Origin: an uncultured Hippea sp.
Lineage (GTDB): Bacteria; Campylobacterota_A; Desulfurellia; JAADFJ01
DNA: 17,207 nt
NCBI GenBank assembly: GCA_913009315.1
Contig: CAJVZA010000043.1
Coordinates: 1-17,207, forward strand
Direction of reading: 5' to 3'
Shown here: in pieces, positions 3,697 through 14,183 of the stretch
How the letters are laid out: each line of letters begins with the position of its first letter
How positions within the stretch are numbered: the stretch's first letter is position 1
Notes under the pieces: model-generated
The model's input: the letters and a program-made list of their open reading frames with translations, nothing else
Told to the model about the DNA's origin: nothing
Databases searched by the model: none
Made by a program: the position numbers and the translations under genes

Positions 3697-6600
3697 AAAT
3701 CAAAAAATTGATGTCGGCAAATCGAGGGGAAATCGCGATAAGAACATTCAGAGCATGTACGGAAATGGGGATAAGAACTGCGGCAATCTATTCGGAAGCA
3801 GACAGATATTCATTGCACAGATATAAAGCCGACGAAGCGTATCTTATCGATAAAGGAGCAGATCCCGTTGACGCATATATGAATGCTCATAAAATTGTTG
3901 AGCTGGCAAAGAGTAAAAACGTTGATGCAATTCACCCCGGATACGGATTTCTTTCAGAAGGAAGTGAACTGGCGGAACTATGCATAAAAAATAATATCAT
4001 ATTTGTGGGGCCTGATCCGGCAACTCTCAGATTGTTTGGAGATAAGCAGTCCGCAAAGAACATAGCCAAAAAATGCGGCATTCCGGTTATTGAAGGATCC
4101 GATGGAATTATAGAAAGCATTGATGAAGCAAAAAGCGTTTCAAAAAAGATTGGATACCCTGTTATGATAAAGGCTGTCGCAGGAGGCGGCGGACGAGGCA
4201 TAAGAGTAGCAAATTCCGAAGAAGAACTTATAGAAAATTATCCTACCGCAAAATCGGAAGCAAAAAAGGCTTTCGGTAATGATGATATCATATTGGAAAA
4301 ATATATTGCCGATCCCAAGCATATAGAAGTTCAACTTCTGGCTGATAAGTTCGGTAATGTTGTTCATCTTTATGAAAGAGACTGCTCGGTTCAAAGAAGG
4401 CATCAAAAACTCATAGAGATAGCACCTTCCATAAATGTTGCCGAAGATACGCTGAAAAAACTTTATGAGTCAGCCGTCACAATCGGAAAATATTCGGATC
4501 TGGTAAGCGCTGCCACAGTTGAATTTCTTGTTGATACCGACGGAAAATTTTATTTTCTTGAAATTAACCCCAGAATTCAGGTGGAGCATACTGTAACGGA
4601 GTTGATTACGGGAATCGATATTGTTCAAGCGCAGATTAGGATTGCAAGCGGTCTCAGGCTCGATTCGGACGCAATGGGCGTTTTGACTCAAGACAGAATA
4701 AAAAAGAGTAACTATGCTATACAGTGCAGAATAACAACAGAAGATCCTAATAACAATTTTATGCCGGATATAGGAGAGATTCGGGCATACAGGAGCCCTG
4801 CCGGTTTTGGCGTGAGACTGGATGCCGGAAACAGTACGGTTAACGCCAAGATAACACCGTTTTACGACTCACTTTTGGTAAAAGTTTCAACATGGGCAAC
4901 AACCTTTGATGCAGCTGCAAAAAAGATGGTCCGGGCGCTCAAAGAGTTCAGAATCAGAGGCGTCAAAACAAACATTCTGTTTTTGGAAAATGTTATAAAT
5001 CATCCGAAATTCCTTCAGGGAACAGTAACAACAACTTTTGTGGATAACTCGCCCGAGCTGTTTCAATTCAGAATTATAAAAGACAGGGCAACGAAAACTA
5101 TGCGATTCTTGGCAAATAATATCATAAACAACCCATCCGGAACAAAAATTCCCGCTTCAATGATACTTCCTGCAATAGATATTCCGTTCAGCAAAACCGA
5201 CAAATCAAATTTCGACGGGACGAAAAATATTTTAGATAAACATGGCGTCAAAGGTATCGTAGATTATATAAACAAAAGTGATGCCGTTCTCTTTACCGAT
5301 ACAACTTTCAGAGATGCTCATCAGTCACTTCTGGCAACAAGAATGCGGACGATTGATCTGGTCAATATTGCCGACAGCTATTCAGAGCATTTGGGAGCCC
5401 TGTTTTCCGTGGAGATGTGGGGAGGAGCAACTTTTGATGTTGCGTACCGGTTTTTAAAAGAATCTCCCTGGGAAAGACTGAGAATACTCAGGAAAAAGAT
5501 TCCCAATATAATGTTTCAGATGCTGCTGCGTGCGTCAAATGCTGTCGGATACAAAAATTATCCCGATAATGTAGTAAAGAAATTTATAAAATTGTCGTCC
5601 GATAACGGTATAGATATTTTTAGAATTTTTGATTGCTTTAACTGGATTGAACAACTGAATCCCATTATAGATATGGTTAAAGAAAATGGAAAGATTTGTG
5701 AAGCTGCAATCTGCTACAGCGGGGATATTTTAGACAACAATAAAAAGAAATATACACTTGACTACTATCTTGATTTAGCGGATAAGCTGAAGGCTGCCGG
5801 TACTGACATAATCGGCATTAAAGACATGACAGGACTTATAAAACCATACGCTGCAAAAATTCTTGTAGAAAACATAAAAAAAGAGACAGGTCTGCCTATT
5901 CATTTTCATACTCATGATACCAGCGGCAATGCGGCAGCATCGGTTATTATGGCGATTGAAGGCGGAGCGGATATAGTAGATGCCGCAATAAGTTCTATGA
6001 GCGGACTCACAAGCCAGCCAAATATGAATTCAATAGTAGCCGCCATAAGTTCTACAAAATATGCATCAGGACTAAACAAAGAATGGATGCAGAAAATATC
6101 CGACTATTTTGAAACGGTTCGAAAATTTTACTTTCCATTTGAAAGCGGACTTAAATCGTCAACTGCAGAAGTATATGAGCATGAGATACCGGGCGGCCAA
6201 TATTCAAATCTTGTTTTTCAGGTTGAGGCATTAGATCTTTATGATCAATGGAAACAGATAAAAGAGATGTACAAAAATGTTAATACGGCGCTGGGCGATC
6301 TCATAAAAGTTACTCCGTCTTCTAAAGTCGTAGGAGATTTGGCACTGTTTTTAGTAAGAAACAATTTTAGTATAGATGATTTGTATAAAACAGGTATAAA
6401 TCTTTCTTTTCCTCAATCTGTTGTTGATTTCTTCAAAGGTATGCTCGGGCAGCCGTATGGAGGGTTTCCTGAAAAGCTTCAGAAAATTGTTCTAAAAGAT
6501 GACAAACCGATCTGTGAAAGACCGGGGAAACTGCTCGGAGATTATGATTTCGATTCTGCAAAAGAAGATTTAAATTTTAGATATAACAGAGAATTCAGTG

Positions 6601-7681: not shown

Positions 7682-7918
7682 TTATGCATCGTGCGGGATT
7701 TTATCGTACTTCACTTTCAGTTTACTACTGATTTTTTTATCTGCATTATGAGACCACTGCACAATAAGCTGTGAATTTGTTTATTATACATCGGTCTCAT
7801 AATCTTTCAATTTACGATGAAACCGGTGTTGCATATAGCTGCGTATTCCGCTCTCTTTGGACACCCAAATCAAGGTAAATTTTCCTGTCTTCTTGTATTG
7901 CATAACTGTCCAAACCAT
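7682..7918 (-). pseudogene. Small basic ORF interrupted by a 49-bp mini-element
   Basis: No family recognised. Read on the minus strand from ATG 7918, 40 codons stay open (start MVWTVMQYKKTG, ...RFHRKLKDY) until the mini-element at 7798-7750, whose sequence brings a stop after three codons (TDV). Removing 7750-7798 and one 5-base flank joins the frame to 20 further codons (GCA GAT AAA ..., ending ...YDKIPHDA) and a TAA at 7682-7684. The result is a 60-residue Lys/Arg-rich product. It ends about 45 bases before the membrane protein gene in the same orientation, so the two could once have been co-transcribed. The exact frame restoration supports a real former gene, but an ORF of this size could be chance; there is no clear ribosome binding site at the ATG, and a TTG a little upstream is an alternative start. 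Confidence 0.35.
7750..7798. mobile_element. 49-bp minimal element made of two abutting family termini
   Basis: The left end reads GAGACCACTGCACAATAAGC, identical to the family terminus. It runs directly into a right end, GCTGTGAATTTGTTTATT..., with a slightly mutated finish CATCGGTCTC instead of CAGTGGTCTC. Everything between the two termini of the longer copy at 9262-9524 is missing. The flanks are ATTAT (7745-7749) and ATAAT (7799-7803), differing at the central base, so a target duplication is only approximate here. It is probably a deletion derivative. Confidence 0.7.
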
Positions 7919-8049: not shown

Positions 8050-9279
8050 ATGGATAACAAAATTTATGTAAAGGTAGATGGGAAACTTTATCGAACAGCC
8101 AAGGGTACGAATCTCTTAGAATTTTTAAAATCTGTCAATATTAATATACCGACTTTATGCTATCATGCAAAGCTTTCGAAAACAGCCGCCTGCAGATTGT
8201 GCCTCGTTAAAACAAACAAAAATAATATTATTACAGCCTGCACACAAGAAATTACAGAAAATATGGAAGTAATAACATCAGATGAAGAAATTGAATATTT
8301 GAGAAGAAGCGTTTTTGAGCTTTTGGTTGACGAATTAAACACAGACTGCGACACCTGCCAGTTGGATGGATTATGCGAACTTCAGCAATTAGCAAAACAG
8401 TTTGACGTAAAACTGCATAAGAAAAGCAACAAATACAAACAGGATACGTCGTCACCTGTTCTCACATACAACCCCAATAAGTGCGTAAAATGTTTTAGAT
8501 GTATTAAGGCCTGCGATGAAATAGAAGGAAAAGGAGTTCTAAATTTTGCGTATCGAGGTCAGGACATGTATGTTGTGGCAGGTTTGGAATCATGGGCATC
8601 AAGCGAATGCGACGGATGCGGCGAGTGCGTACAGGTTTGCCCGACAGCGGCACTGATTGAAAAAAATCTTCTTAATTTTGACAAGGTTATTCCATTTGAA
8701 AAACACGTAACGACATGCATTTTCTGCGGAGTCGGGTGTCAAATGGATGTATGGTTAAAAGGTAAAGAAATTTTAAAGGTTGAAGGCGCAGATGAAATAC
8801 CGAATCACGGCTCATTATGCGTCAAAGGAAGATTCGGCATAGACGGGCTTCTAAATGACGATAGATTGAAAACTCCGTTAATCAAAGAAAATGGAGAGTT
8901 CAGAGAAGCAAGCTGGGATGAAGCCTTAAATCTAATTGCAAAGAAGCTCACATATATAAAAGAAAAGTACGGCTCAGATGCTATATGCGGATTGTCTTCC
9001 GCTAAATGTACAAACGAAGAAAACTATATATTCCAAAAGTTTATCAGGGCTGTTATAGGAACCAATAATATAGATCATTGTGCTCGACTATGCCATGCAT
9101 CAACAGTAACAGGGCTTATCATGTCTTTTGGCAGCGGAGCTATGACAAACTCCATATCAGAGCTTGAAAAAGCCGATGCAATATTGATTACAGGATCAAA
9201 CATAACGGAAGCGCACCCTGTTATTGCAACATTCATCAAAAAAGCCATAAAAAACAATAATGAGACCACTGCACAGTAA
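8050..9279 (+). pseudogene. fdhA: Formate dehydrogenase alpha subunit, 5' part (gene split by inserted element)
   Basis: This is the N-terminal 404 native residues (plus ETTAQ and a stop contributed by the element) of an NAD-linked, molybdenum/tungsten formate dehydrogenase catalytic subunit. It has a NuoG-like [2Fe-2S] domain (C37, C48, C51, C64), a second cluster motif (C100-x2-C103-x5-C109) and 2[4Fe-4S] ferredoxin motifs (C145/148/151/155 and C187/190/193/197). The molybdopterin-domain [4Fe-4S] ligands follow (C223-x2-C226-x3-C230 ... C257). The catalytic position is Cys348 in DHCARLCH, so this is a cysteine and not a selenocysteine enzyme. The His normally four residues before C100 in His-Cys3 clusters is replaced by Leu96. 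The native reading ends at ...KNNN (9261), where the 263-bp element begins. The ribosome binding site is weak (GGA about 10 bases upstream). Without the second half, catalysis is not expected. Confidence 0.9.
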
Positions 9280-9290
9280 GCAGATACACA

Positions 9291-9390
9291 GAAGTCAAAG
9301 AAAGGGTAAGATTTAGAAATTAAAATTTGAGGTACTAACCGGTTAGTTTGAGAATTTTAATTTCCTGAAGATTGCCCTTTATTTGACTTC
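9291..9390. repeat. 100-bp imperfect palindrome, left half of the 263-bp element
   Basis: It starts GAAGTCAAA and ends TTTGACTTC, with an exact centre at AACC|GGTT (9340/9341) inside the perfect 14-base palindrome ACTAACCGGTTAGT (9334-9347). GAAATTAAAATT and AATTTTAATTTC form a further perfect 12-base arm pair. Mismatches and one balanced single-base offset are scattered between. It could form a DNA cruciform or, if transcribed, a long RNA hairpin. Confidence 0.8.
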
Positions 9391-9402
9391 CCTGCGGGCT
9401 TT

Positions 9403-9488
9403 ATGAGGTTTCCCATATACTTCGTTAAACTTCTTTGAATTAACCCGTTAGTCCTTCAGAAGTTTGCCTTGTCTATAGAAAACCTCAT
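9403..9488. repeat. 86-bp imperfect palindrome, right half of the 263-bp element
   Basis: The outer arms are ATGAGGTTT (9403-9411) and AAACCTCAT (9480-9488). Inner arms AAACTTCT and AGAAGTTT surround a core TAAC-CC-GTTA centred at 9445/9446. The core TTAACCCGTTAGTCC resembles the core of the left palindrome, so the two hairpins may share ancestry. Confidence 0.72.
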
Positions 9489-9496
9489 GAAAAGCT

Positions 9497-10993
9497 GTGA
9501 ATTTGCTTATTGTGCAGTGGTCTCATAATGCAAAATTAATCCTCGCAGATCCGAGAAAAATAGATATAGCAAAATATGCAGCAATACATATGCAGCAAAA
9601 AAACGGCACAGATGTGGCATGGCTTAATGGAATGATGAATGTAATAATCAATGAAGGTTTGGAAAATAAAAAATTTATAGAAGAAAGAACGGAGGGATTC
9701 GAGGAGTTTAAATCTGTTATAATGCGATATACACCGGAGTATGTGGAAAAAATAACCGGCATAAATAAAGAGGATATAATAAAAGCTGCACGCTTATTCG
9801 CAAATGCTGAAAATGCTTCTATTGTTTACGCAATGGGTATAACGCAGCATACAACAGGTACGGATAATGTTTTATCCATCGCAAATCTTTCTATGCTTAC
9901 AGGAAATATTGGAAAATTGTATTCAGGCGTGAATCCCCTAAGAGGACAAAATAACGTCCAGGGTGCCTGCGATGTCGGAGCTCTGCCGAATGTCTATCCC
10001 GGATATCAACGTGTGAATATAAAGGAAAATAGAAAAAAATTCGAAAAAGCATGGAATACTCAGCTATCCGATAAATTCGGCCTCACGGTTGTAGAAATGA
10101 TGCACGGCGTATTGGAAAACAAAATTAAAGCATTCTTTATTATGGGTGAAAATCCGGTTCTGTCGGATCCAAACATAAAACATGTCAAAAAAGCTCTAAA
10201 TAAGGTTGAATTTTTAGCTGTTCAGGATATCTACCTCTCGGAAACGGCCGAATACGCAGATGTCGTACTGCCTGCCTGCTCATTTTTGGAGAAGAACGGT
10301 ACATTTACAAATACAGAACGCCGAATACTTCCTATAAATAAAATTTTGAATCCAATTGGACAATCAAAAAGCGATTGGGAGATAATATGCGATTTGTCAA
10401 CACGCATGGGCTATAAAATGCATTATGAAAACGAATCGGAAATAATGGATGAGATAGCATCTCTGTCTTCTATATATGCCGGTGTAAATTATGATAGACT
10501 TGATGAGAAACTTCAATGGCCGGTACTATCAAAGAATCATCCCGGTACTCCATTTTTGCATAAAGATAAATTTGCAAAAGGATTAGGCAGCTTCAAACCT
10601 GTAGATTATGTAGAGCCGGCAGAATTGCCTGATAATGAATATCCATTTATCTTATCGACAGGGAGAATGTTATATCATTATCATACGGGAACAATAACAA
10701 GACGCTCACAATACTTAACAAAATACATTAATGAACCGTACGCAGAAGTAAACCCTGATGACGCAAAAAAATGCGGTGTAGAAGACGGCGGCATGATTAA
10801 AGTTTCAACAAGAAGAGGGGAAATCGTATTAAAGGCATTGTACAGTGAGAGAGTTTTTGAAAAAAGTATATTTATCCCGTTTCATTTTAAAGAAGCTGCG
10901 GCAAATGTTCTCACAAACGACGCATTGGATCCCATAGCAAAGATCCCGGAATATAAAGTTGCAAGTGCAAAATGCAGAATTGAGAAGGTGTAA
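9497..10993 (+). pseudogene. fdhA: Formate dehydrogenase alpha subunit, 3' part (element-derived N-terminus)
   Basis: This holds the remaining molybdopterin oxidoreductase domain of fdhA. Native sequence begins at GCA 9530 (AKLILADPRKIDIAK, the continuation of the ...KNNN end of the 5' part) and runs to the end at EYKVASAKCRIEKV. Recognisable blocks are TGNIGKLYSGVNPLRGQNNVQGACDVG (cofactor binding), IMGENPVLSDPN, LSETAEYADVVLPACSFLEKNGTFTNTERR and the C-terminal dinucleotide-binding domain with GRMLYHYHTGTITRRS. An in-frame GTG at 9497 inside the element terminus gives the leader MNLLIVQWSH, so this half could be translated separately, but no clear ribosome binding site precedes it. The two halves together would make a normal-length subunit of about 890 residues. 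It is followed within 3 bases by the NuoE-like gene. Confidence 0.88.
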
Positions 10994-10996
10994 AAT

Positions 10997-11464
10997 ATGG
11001 ATATAGAAAATATTCTGAAAAAGTATAGCAAAGACAAATCATATCTTTTAGAAATTATGCACGATGTGGAAAAATCTAAGGAGAATAAAAATTTAGATCT
11101 CAACGATCTGAAGGTTATATCCAAATACTTGGATATTAATCTATCTGCTGCATACGGGACAGCAACCTTTTATTCAATGTTTTCACTAAAACCACAAGCA
11201 AAATATGTAATAATGGTATGCTCATCTACCGTGTGTCACATAAAAAAATCTTATGACATTTTATTATTCTTAAAATCTCTATTGAACTGCGATGATGATA
11301 ATTTGAGCAAAGACGGCTTATTTGCAGTATCGGAGGTGGGATGTTTGGGTTTATGCGATATTTCACCATCTATGATGATAAATAATCAAGTATATGGAGA
11401 TCTTGATGAAAATAAAATTAAACAGATAGTTGGGGAATTAAGAAATGGAAGCAATGGCGCATAA
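10997..11464 (+). CDS. NuoE-like [2Fe-2S] subunit of formate dehydrogenase
   Basis: The 155-residue thioredoxin-fold ferredoxin subunit would pass electrons between the formate dehydrogenase catalytic subunit and the FMN/NAD subunit (FdsG/HndA/NuoE family). The four cluster ligands are C75-x4-C80 (CSSTVC) and C116-x3-C120 (CLGLC). The N-terminal helical part with AAYGTATFYSMFSLKP (about 51-66) is typical of the family. It begins 3 bases after the fdhA stop and overlaps the next gene by 20 bases. The gene itself is intact although its partner fdhA is broken. A hydrogenase subunit is the alternative, but no hydrogenase large subunit is present here. Confidence 0.9.
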   Translation: MDIENILKKYSKDKSYLLEIMHDVEKSKENKNLDLNDLKVISKYLDINLSAAYGTATFYSMFSLKPQAKYVIMVCSSTVCHIKKSYDILLFLKSLLNCDDDNLSKDGLFAVSEVGCLGLCDISPSMMINNQVYGDLDENKIKQIVGELRNGSNGA

Positions 11465-12677
11465 AAATCTAAAAGAACCCATTATAATTACAACTTATCA
11501 AACACAATGCTTAGAGGATTATATAAATGACGGAGGATATGAAACACTTAAAAATGTCTTAACGAAATATAAACCCAACGAGATCATAGAACAAATTAAA
11601 GCATCGGAATTGCTGGGAAGAGGCGGAGCGGCTTTTCCAACAGGAATAAAATGGGATTTTACCGCTCAAATAAAAGCCGATCACAAGTTTGTCGTATGCA
11701 ACGCTGATGAAGGAGAACCGGGTACATTTAAGGATAGATGGATATTGGAACATAAATCCTATTCACTGATAGAAGCAATGTCCTTATGCGCATATTCCGT
11801 TGGCGGAGATAAAGGATACATATATATAAGAGGTGAATATACGGAATCAATAAACAGCATCAGAAAGGCACTAAAAGAAGCTTATGATAATGGTTTTCTG
11901 GGTGAAAACATATTGAAAAGCGGTTTTTCTTTCAATATAGAGTTAAGGCGGGGTGATGGATCATATGTGTGCGGAGAAGAAACAGCTCTAATAGAATCCA
12001 TAGAAGGCAAAAGAGCGTTCCCGAGATTCAAACCCCCATTCCCGGGCATCAAAGGATTGTGGGGCTATCCTACGGTAATAAACAATGTCGAAACATTCGC
12101 TAATATTGTGCCCATTATCAAAAATGGCGCAGATTGGTTCAAAAATTATGGAACAGAACACTCATCAGGGACAAAGCTATATTCCATTTCCGGTTCTGTT
12201 AATAAAAGCGGTATAATCGAGGCGAATCTCGGCGTAACGCTGAAAGAATTATTAGATGCAGCGCAGGGAATGAAAAACAGCAAAACATTCAAATGTGCTC
12301 TTATTGGAGGCGCAAGCGGCGGTTTTGTATATAAGGATGAGCTTGACCTGCCTTTATCATACGAAACATTAAAAAAAGCAGGCAAAACGCTGGGATCAGG
12401 TGCCGTTTTGTTTCTTTCTGAAGACGATAACGAAGAAAGCTTACTTAAAAACATTCTGACATTTTTTAAACACGAATCATGCGGTAAATGTACGCCCTGC
12501 AGAGAAGGTTATCCAAAATTGATTGCTATGTATGAAGCATTTTTAGAAAATAAAATCAAAGCGGAAGACATCATGAAGCTCGCAGATGTGATGTTCAAAA
12601 CTTCTCTATGCGCATTAGGACAGTCCGTTAGAATGCCCTTGGAAACATATTTAAGCCGTAAGTATAAAAAGCTGTGA
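11445..12677 (+). CDS. NuoF-like FMN/NAD(H)-binding subunit of formate dehydrogenase
   Basis: This subunit would bind FMN and NAD and complete electron transfer from formate to NAD+ (FdsB/HndC/NuoF family). The 410 residues show the NADH/FMN site (GRGGAAFPTG about 58-67, CNADEGEPGTFKDR about 85-98, GDGSYVCGEETALIESIEG), the soluble-ligand-binding domain, and the [4Fe-4S] ligands C346-x2-C349-x2-C352 ... C389 (ESCGKCTPC, LCALGQS). There is neither an N-terminal thioredoxin-like domain nor a C-terminal ferredoxin domain, so it is the short form. The start ATG follows GGGGA by about 8 bases; ATG 11454 is an alternative. The 3' end is odd: after METYLSRKY the last codons AAA AAG CTG TGA lie inside a solo terminus of the repeat family, so the native tail was probably replaced by a few residues and a stop from the element. 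Confidence 0.9.
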   Translation: MEAMAHKNLKEPIIITTYQTQCLEDYINDGGYETLKNVLTKYKPNEIIEQIKASELLGRGGAAFPTGIKWDFTAQIKADHKFVVCNADEGEPGTFKDRWILEHKSYSLIEAMSLCAYSVGGDKGYIYIRGEYTESINSIRKALKEAYDNGFLGENILKSGFSFNIELRRGDGSYVCGEETALIESIEGKRAFPRFKPPFPGIKGLWGYPTVINNVETFANIVPIIKNGADWFKNYGTEHSSGTKLYSISGSVNKSGIIEANLGVTLKELLDAAQGMKNSKTFKCALIGGASGGFVYKDELDLPLSYETLKKAGKTLGSGAVLFLSEDDNEESLLKNILTFFKHESCGKCTPCREGYPKLIAMYEAFLENKIKAEDIMKLADVMFKTSLCALGQSVRMPLETYLSRKYKKL

Positions 12678-12701
12678 ATTTGCTTATTGTGCAGTGGTCT
12701 C
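12663..12701 (+). mobile_element. Solo right terminus of the repeat family overlapping the NuoF-like stop
   Basis: From ATAAAAAGCTGTGAAT through GCAGTGGTCTC this stretch matches the right end of the 263-bp element (from AAAAGCTG) and, on the other strand, the terminus at 13911. The outer flank is ATTAT (12702-12706). No matching left end lies just upstream, where the NuoF-like coding sequence is intact, so it is either a remnant left by deletion or one border of a larger unit. Confidence 0.72.
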
Positions 12702-12863
12702 ATTATATGCCAACGCCCTGACATCAATTAAAGGCTGACAAGGAAATACAGGTTATTTATCAGACAATAGAGTAAAATACCTCGCATATTTTATCGGAGC
12801 AAAACGCGGCCAAGCGCTCTTTCGCGCATATCCTGCAAATTTGCCGGCATTTTAAACAATATT
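12702..12863. other. Intergenic region with possible gene debris
   Basis: Between the solo terminus and the convergent radical SAM gene there is no complete gene. On the plus strand 12739-12855 is open (start QGNTGYLSDN..., ending ...PANLPAF) but begins right after a stop and lacks an initiation codon and ribosome binding site. It may be the tail of a lost gene. No convincing terminator is seen. Confidence 0.3.
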
Positions 12864-13740: not shown

Positions 13741-13938
13741 TTATTCCATATCTCTTTGTATAGTTTTTTTATTAATCCCGAGCTCCTTTAATAAGATGAC
13801 CAAAGTAAAAAGCCCATTCGTTATTACTTTCTCATCTGTTAAAACTGAATCGGCCCCTTTCAGTCTTTTTATTCTAAGTATTTCCAAAAGATTGATTAAT
13901 TCTGCATTATAAGACCACTGCACAATAAACATATTCAC
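13741..13938 (-). pseudogene. Orphan ORF fragment fused to an element terminus
   Basis: This is a 65-codon open frame. The first nine residues (MNMFIVQWS, from a GTG) come from the repeat terminus at 13911-13938. Native-looking sequence starts at GCAGAATTAATC (AELINLLEILRIKRLKG). It ends ...LLKELGINKKTIQRDME, a segment that resembles the helix-turn-helix of HTH_11/WYL-type regulators (LGxSxRTIQRD). The product looks like a piece of a broken gene whose 5' part was lost or separated by the element. I cannot name the family with confidence, and no ribosome binding site is obvious at the GTG. Confidence 0.35.
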
Positions 13939-13985
13939 AGCTTTTTATGAGGTTTTCTACAGGGCACTTCTGTTAATCCGTAAAC
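13911..13985 (+). mobile_element. Degenerate left terminus of the repeat family
   Basis: AAGACCACTGCACAATAA (13911 onward, first base changed from G to A) is followed by ATTCACAGC, then TATGAGGTTTTCTA (from about 13938) and ACTTCTG. This parallels the reverse complement of the right part of the 263-bp element, with deletions. Similarity fades after about 13985. Outer flank is ATTAT (13906-13910). No matching right end was found up to 17207. Confidence 0.65.
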
Positions 13986-14183
13986 AATCATCTTATTCTT
14001 TTTCATCCTGATTTCAAATCTTTCAGAAGCTTGAGCAATAACAACAAGCAAACATGTCAAAATTTTTGTCTATCATTATTCACGCATTGTCTATTGCCGG
14101 TAAAAAATTTGATGAAGCAAAATATTTAAAGACAATTAGTGCAAAAAATATTTCAAATTGAAGTTTTTAATATGTTGAGAGAT
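13986..14183. other. AT-rich intergenic stretch, no supported gene
   Basis: The sequence is very AT-rich. One short open frame, ATG 14054 to TGA 14161 (35 residues, start MSKFLSIIIHALSIAG), has no ribosome binding site and no recognisable family; I do not count it as a gene. Nothing else is visible here apart from the promoter-like elements that follow. Confidence 0.4.

Follow-up and report, generated by a model that had tools for sequence, protein, structure and literature searches.

A 263-bp MITE insertion splits the formate dehydrogenase gene fdhA in an uncultured Hippea species

The contig of an uncultured Hippea species analyzed here (17 207 nt, hereafter the window) carries a formate dehydrogenase gene, fdhA, that falls into two parts, which raises the question of what has split it and whether a working enzyme can still be made. 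The interruption is a 263-bp element at positions 9262–9524. The original prediction of a transposase-free mobile element had these coordinates correct to the base, and its description of inverted termini and an exact ATAAT duplication also holds. The terminal inverted repeats are 30 bp long (9262–9291, forward strand; 9495–9524, reverse strand), with the left end GAGACCACTGCACAGTAAGCAGATACACAG and the reverse complement of the right end GAGACCACTGCACAATAAGCAAATTCACAG agreeing at 27 of 30 positions, and the 5-bp target duplication is present as identical copies of ATAAT at 9257–9261 and 9525–9529 (both forward). When the duplication is included, the resulting 35-nt arms are 89% complementary. 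Within the ends, the element consists of a palindrome B (9291–9390; two 50-nt arms, 72% complementary, equivalent to paired columns 30–129 of the family alignment) and a hairpin C (9400–9491; 21-nt arms enclosing another stem), so that the end-to-end fold comprises an outer stem and two hairpin arms. The element (forward orientation) is non-coding, as its longest open reading frame (ORF) only continues into the flanking gene. Being shorter than 500 bp, bounded by inverted repeats and free of a transposase gene, it has the make-up of a bacterial MITE; members of the IS5 family (DUF772/DDE) carry their own DDE transposase, which is missing here, and the element is therefore an IS derivative and not an IS.

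The consequences for the reading frame are as had been predicted. The 5′ ORF (8050–9279, forward) encodes NuoG-like Fe-S domains and the start of the molybdopterin domain, and terminates at a TAA once five sense codons of the element have been read. The 3′ part (9530–10993, forward), with the rest of the molybdopterin domain and a dinucleotide-binding domain, is open in another frame from 9497 to 10993, an ORF of 498 amino acids that starts at a GTG (9497) within the element. Aligned to FdhA, both halves match one family, TIGR01591 (formate dehydrogenase alpha), at adjacent profile positions 1–183 and 183–670, and the break interrupts the molybdopterin domain (at PF00384 positions 136/130). 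Removal of 268 bp restores the frame as ...NNNAKLILADPRK, and the sister species of the same genus (G001) reads through without a break as ...NNNARLILADPRK, in agreement with the proposal that the codons join across the junction once the element is taken out.

Comparison with related genomes provides the empty site. In G001, fdhA is uninterrupted, with the sequence AAACAATAATGCAAG at the site and one ATAAT exactly where the window has two; the contig starts within the gene, leaving 127 codons upstream of the site for comparison. Three more genomes from the phylum (G008, G020 and G022) likewise have uninterrupted fdhA genes of about 900 codons, and the split form occurs in none of the related genomes compared. 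Between the genome studied here (G000) and G001, dN/dS is 0.099 upstream of the site (126 codons) and 0.055 downstream (487 codons), with dS of 0.47 and 0.36, respectively, next to 0.19 and 0.12 for the neighboring genes, and neither part of fdhA has a further in-frame stop. Judged by these substitution rates, fdhA has been under constraint for nearly all of the time since the two species split. The empty site in G001, the low dN/dS of both halves and the lack of other stops indicate that the insertion is recent, as originally suggested, and this copy of the element is itself young because it is 98% identical to three others in the genome (on contigs C24, C58 and C5); identity to further copies is 73–96%.

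The genes that follow fdhA on the forward strand are a NuoE-like [2Fe-2S] partner subunit (10997–11464), which is intact with a dN/dS of 0.19 against G001, and a NuoF-like FMN/NADH partner subunit (11445–12677), whose ORF is open. Directly after the latter gene (12660–12706), a right-end fragment of the same element family (12671–12701, reverse strand, then ATTAT) provides its stop codon; G001 has no such fragment there, and about 2 kb with other ORFs occupy that interval. In insertion-bearing cells, the cytoplasmic, NAD-linked and NuoE/NuoF-coupled formate dehydrogenase is expected to be inactive. The original claim that the host would lose formate dehydrogenase is overstated: contig C21 has a second gene, intact and full-length, for an exported, Tat-type formate dehydrogenase-N alpha subunit (FdnG type; 1230 bits against TIGR01553, with a cut-off of 814), and formate oxidation as such therefore need not be lost.

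Treating the insertion as a single element was incomplete, since it belongs to a large family with further members and pieces in the same window. We estimate about 70 copies in the 1.74-Mb genome. A search for the 20-base terminus with up to three mismatches found 148 occurrences in G000, 117 in G001 and three in a third member of the genus (G002), compared with none for the reversed control pattern in G000 and G001. BLAST recovered about 40 copies or partial copies in G000, many of them at contig ends, and the repeat thus limits the assembly. No family match was found in any other genome searched, including 22 further genomes of the phylum; a plasmid collection had no copy of the element, and viral contigs had no exact terminus. 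Resolved copies fall into size classes of 49–55, ∼155, ∼262 and ∼420 bp, with other repeat families inserted within the larger members, and most lie between matching or near-matching 5-mers, mostly ATWAT (ATAAT or ATTAT). Upstream of the fdh operon in the window, for example, a 49-bp mini member made of two joined ends (7750–7798, forward) sits between ATTAT and ATAAT. The family is multicopy, dispersed and mostly intergenic, as expected of a bacterial MITE: of 72 resolved copies, 70 lie between genes or at their ends, the usual location for such repeats (PMC10969869), and only two, both in G000 (2 of 31, against 0 of 41 in G001), are in the middle of a gene.

The two genes struck are fdhA and a PAP2-type phosphatase gene on contig C58, a type assigned from sequence motifs. 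There, a 263-bp copy (∼2514–2776) splits the gene into halves that share one frame across the empty site; another genome (G023) has a 53%-identical stretch to this gene. We also considered the 49-, 52- and 55-bp minis as in-frame protein insertions (54, 57 and 60 bases with the duplication), an idea that was rejected as nearly all are outside long ORFs; the only one read through in frame is a 49-bp copy on contig C55, close to the end of its gene.

Several mini-repeat families of this genus insert into each other. At 13911–14000 of the window, a left end of the MITE family runs into part of a second repeat (CAGGGCACTTCTGTTAATCCGTAAAC...); at other loci this second repeat has entered the MITE itself, apparently with TA as its target. 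A third repeat (GAGGCTGTTGATAAA... / ...TTTATCAACAGGCTG) sits within the MITE on contig C33 of G000 (1300–2650, with ATAC on both sides) and on L266 of G001 (5634–6061). Also on L266 (6025–6846), a radical SAM gene has its C-terminus replaced by MITE-encoded residues (IMRPLHNKHTHRS), and the version of that gene in the window ends differently.

A candidate for the source of mobility is found on contig C15 of G000, where a terminus, GAGACCACTGCACAGTAAAC, matches that of the MITE over 20 identical bases, with a truncated transposase gene some 115 bp inward of it. The product matches Pfam DUF772 (E-value 2e-22) and, with a score under the Pfam cut-off, part of a DDE domain; its best NCBIfam scores are with models for IS1182 and IS5 and reach neither cut-off, as expected of a truncated protein. 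Because the sequence around the relic matches DNA beside larger transposase genes of G001, one IS has probably inserted into another here. Its best plasmid relative, at 56% identity, is an intact IS5-family transposase of 421 amino acids on plasmid pACIB of Aliarcobacter cibarius. The IS that encodes it is 1529 bp long, starts with GAGACCACTGCA, ends with TGTGCAGTGGGCTC and has ATATA on both sides. The MITE shares the GAGACCACTGCA end with this IS and the 20 terminal bases with the C15 relic, and thus has ends in common with an autonomous-type IS; as only the ends are common to both, it is a type II MITE. The pACIB element supports placing the boundary at GAGACC, a duplication of 5 bp and an origin of the transposase in such an IS, and the mover is likely to be an IS5/IS1182-type transposase. 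The assemblies of G000, G001 and G002 yielded no intact transposase bounded by these ends, which is weak evidence given their incompleteness: the G000 assembly is 87.6% complete with many contigs ending in the repeat, and a multicopy IS could therefore be missing from it. The family may now be immobile.

Taken as a MITE, the element also has a marked secondary structure. It folds end to end as RNA at −111.7 kcal/mol (z −12.9), and in 16 full-length copies from two species, 95.8% of the cells at 102 base pairs are paired. Two-sided changes that keep the pairing occur at 25 of the 102 pairs, compared with 13 in shuffles and three to seven in slid structures; the slid control is the better guide, as related sequences easily exceed shuffles. 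Both strands fold about equally well, and counts of G-U against A-C pairs give no clear strand bias overall (33 versus 29 in the outer stem and 57 versus 54 in arm C, with 85 versus 12 in arm B on the strand for which its structure was predicted). Because both strands fold alike, a cause at the DNA level, either templated correction of the palindrome or a need for folded ends, and a function as RNA are equally likely. No Rfam family matched the window or three other copies at gathering thresholds, and the element does not resemble a self-splicing intron or another Rfam RNA by this search. We give a low probability to the proposal that selection or a copying mechanism keeps the whole 263-bp fold, and that the fold could be functional and make precise loss, and hence reversible disruption of fdhA, frequent; if so, the folded form could act in its own mobilization or as a structured RNA. 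The paired two-sided changes are the only part of this locus somewhat beyond routine.

Combining these results, we consider it very probable that an IS5/IS1182-type DDE transposase acting in trans inserted this non-autonomous type II MITE at an ATAAT in fdhA, halting the production of full-length FdhA, with the type of transposase and the inactivity of the enzyme deduced from sequence. The transposase would have made a staggered cut, which when filled in would give the 5-bp duplication, and as translation meets a stop five codons inside the element and the sequence past it is out of frame, no full-length catalytic subunit would be made. The insertion is read from a consensus assembly, which does not give the fraction of cells carrying it. 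A switch based on precise exit and re-entry of the element, with fdhA alternating between on and off states in the population, would fit the exact duplication, which allows scarless restoration, the long palindrome, which would bring both ATAAT copies together, and the otherwise undamaged gene. This phase-variable reading, raised in the original prediction, is nevertheless very unlikely: no excised form was observed, just two of 72 resolved copies in two species are mid-gene with no pattern of element-controlled genes, the other fdhA-bearing genomes are more readily accounted for if the element never entered the gene, and the cut-and-paste exit of elements ordinarily leaves the DNA broken instead of cleanly repaired. 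The claim of scarless reversibility stands to the extent that precise deletion is possible on paper, as with any target duplication, but nothing beyond that is supported. The presence of many contigs ending in the repeat, together with copies that are 98% identical, could suggest that the assembler misplaced a copy between the halves of an intact fdhA. The duplication, however, is exact and of the family type, and a misjoined repeat would not produce a second ATAAT at a position where G001 has just one, making an artefact less probable again.

Two further readings would keep fdhA functional with the element in place. The halves might assemble as two proteins, with the element supplying the new GTG start at 9497; both are open with low dN/dS, and the 498-residue 3′ ORF begins in the element. 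Yet the period preceding the insertion accounts for the low dN/dS, the break is within the molybdopterin domain and no related genome has the split form, so we regard a split gene as still more improbable than a misassembly. Least probable of all is that the element is spliced out or hopped over by the ribosome and fdhA still works, even though the end-to-end fold, kept by two-sided changes, sets two AAT codons side by side. Such a bypass would have to span 268 nt in an element without likeness to a known intron or a match in Rfam, and would allow insertions in genes to be tolerated, at odds with their rarity in both species. A broader version, in which many element-carrying genes are rescued at the RNA level, was set aside since only fdhA and the phosphatase gene are struck mid-gene.

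MITE insertion into fdhA has several documented parallels. Chunjie-1 of Geobacter uraniireducens is a 235-bp MITE that disrupts one of two phosphate uptake operons and has dozens of size-variable copies elsewhere (PMC10969869). The element described here likewise disrupts a metabolic operon and has dozens of copies of variable size, but differs in sequence, host and target, and includes 49–55-bp minis and nested larger forms. QMITE1 and QMITE2 of Coxiella burnetii, which range from tens of bases to ∼400 bp, have folded transcripts and are mostly intergenic (PMC10969869, PMC5896051), are similar in size range and location by description, with different ends and hosts. The pACIB IS has the same GAGACCACTGCA terminus and a 5-bp AT-rich duplication, whereas the MITE shares only its ends with that 1529-bp element and its 421-residue transposase. 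Rickettsia palindromic elements are palindromic repeats that can also lie in coding genes, where they are kept in frame as protein insertions (PMC10969869); in contrast, the 263-bp copy in fdhA stops the frame, and the C55 mini alone is read through. With Chunjie in a phosphate uptake operon and a MITE in pyrE of Sulfolobus as comparable insertions (PMC10969869), this is an ordinary MITE insertion in which the family is new, the kind of event is well documented and no new mechanism is involved. The locus provides a clean natural example of a MITE that has very recently broken a central energy gene, for which a sister species retains the empty site and the probable type of transposase has been identified. 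It also calls for caution, as metabolic pathways reconstructed from the genes of this genome would include a formate dehydrogenase that is broken.
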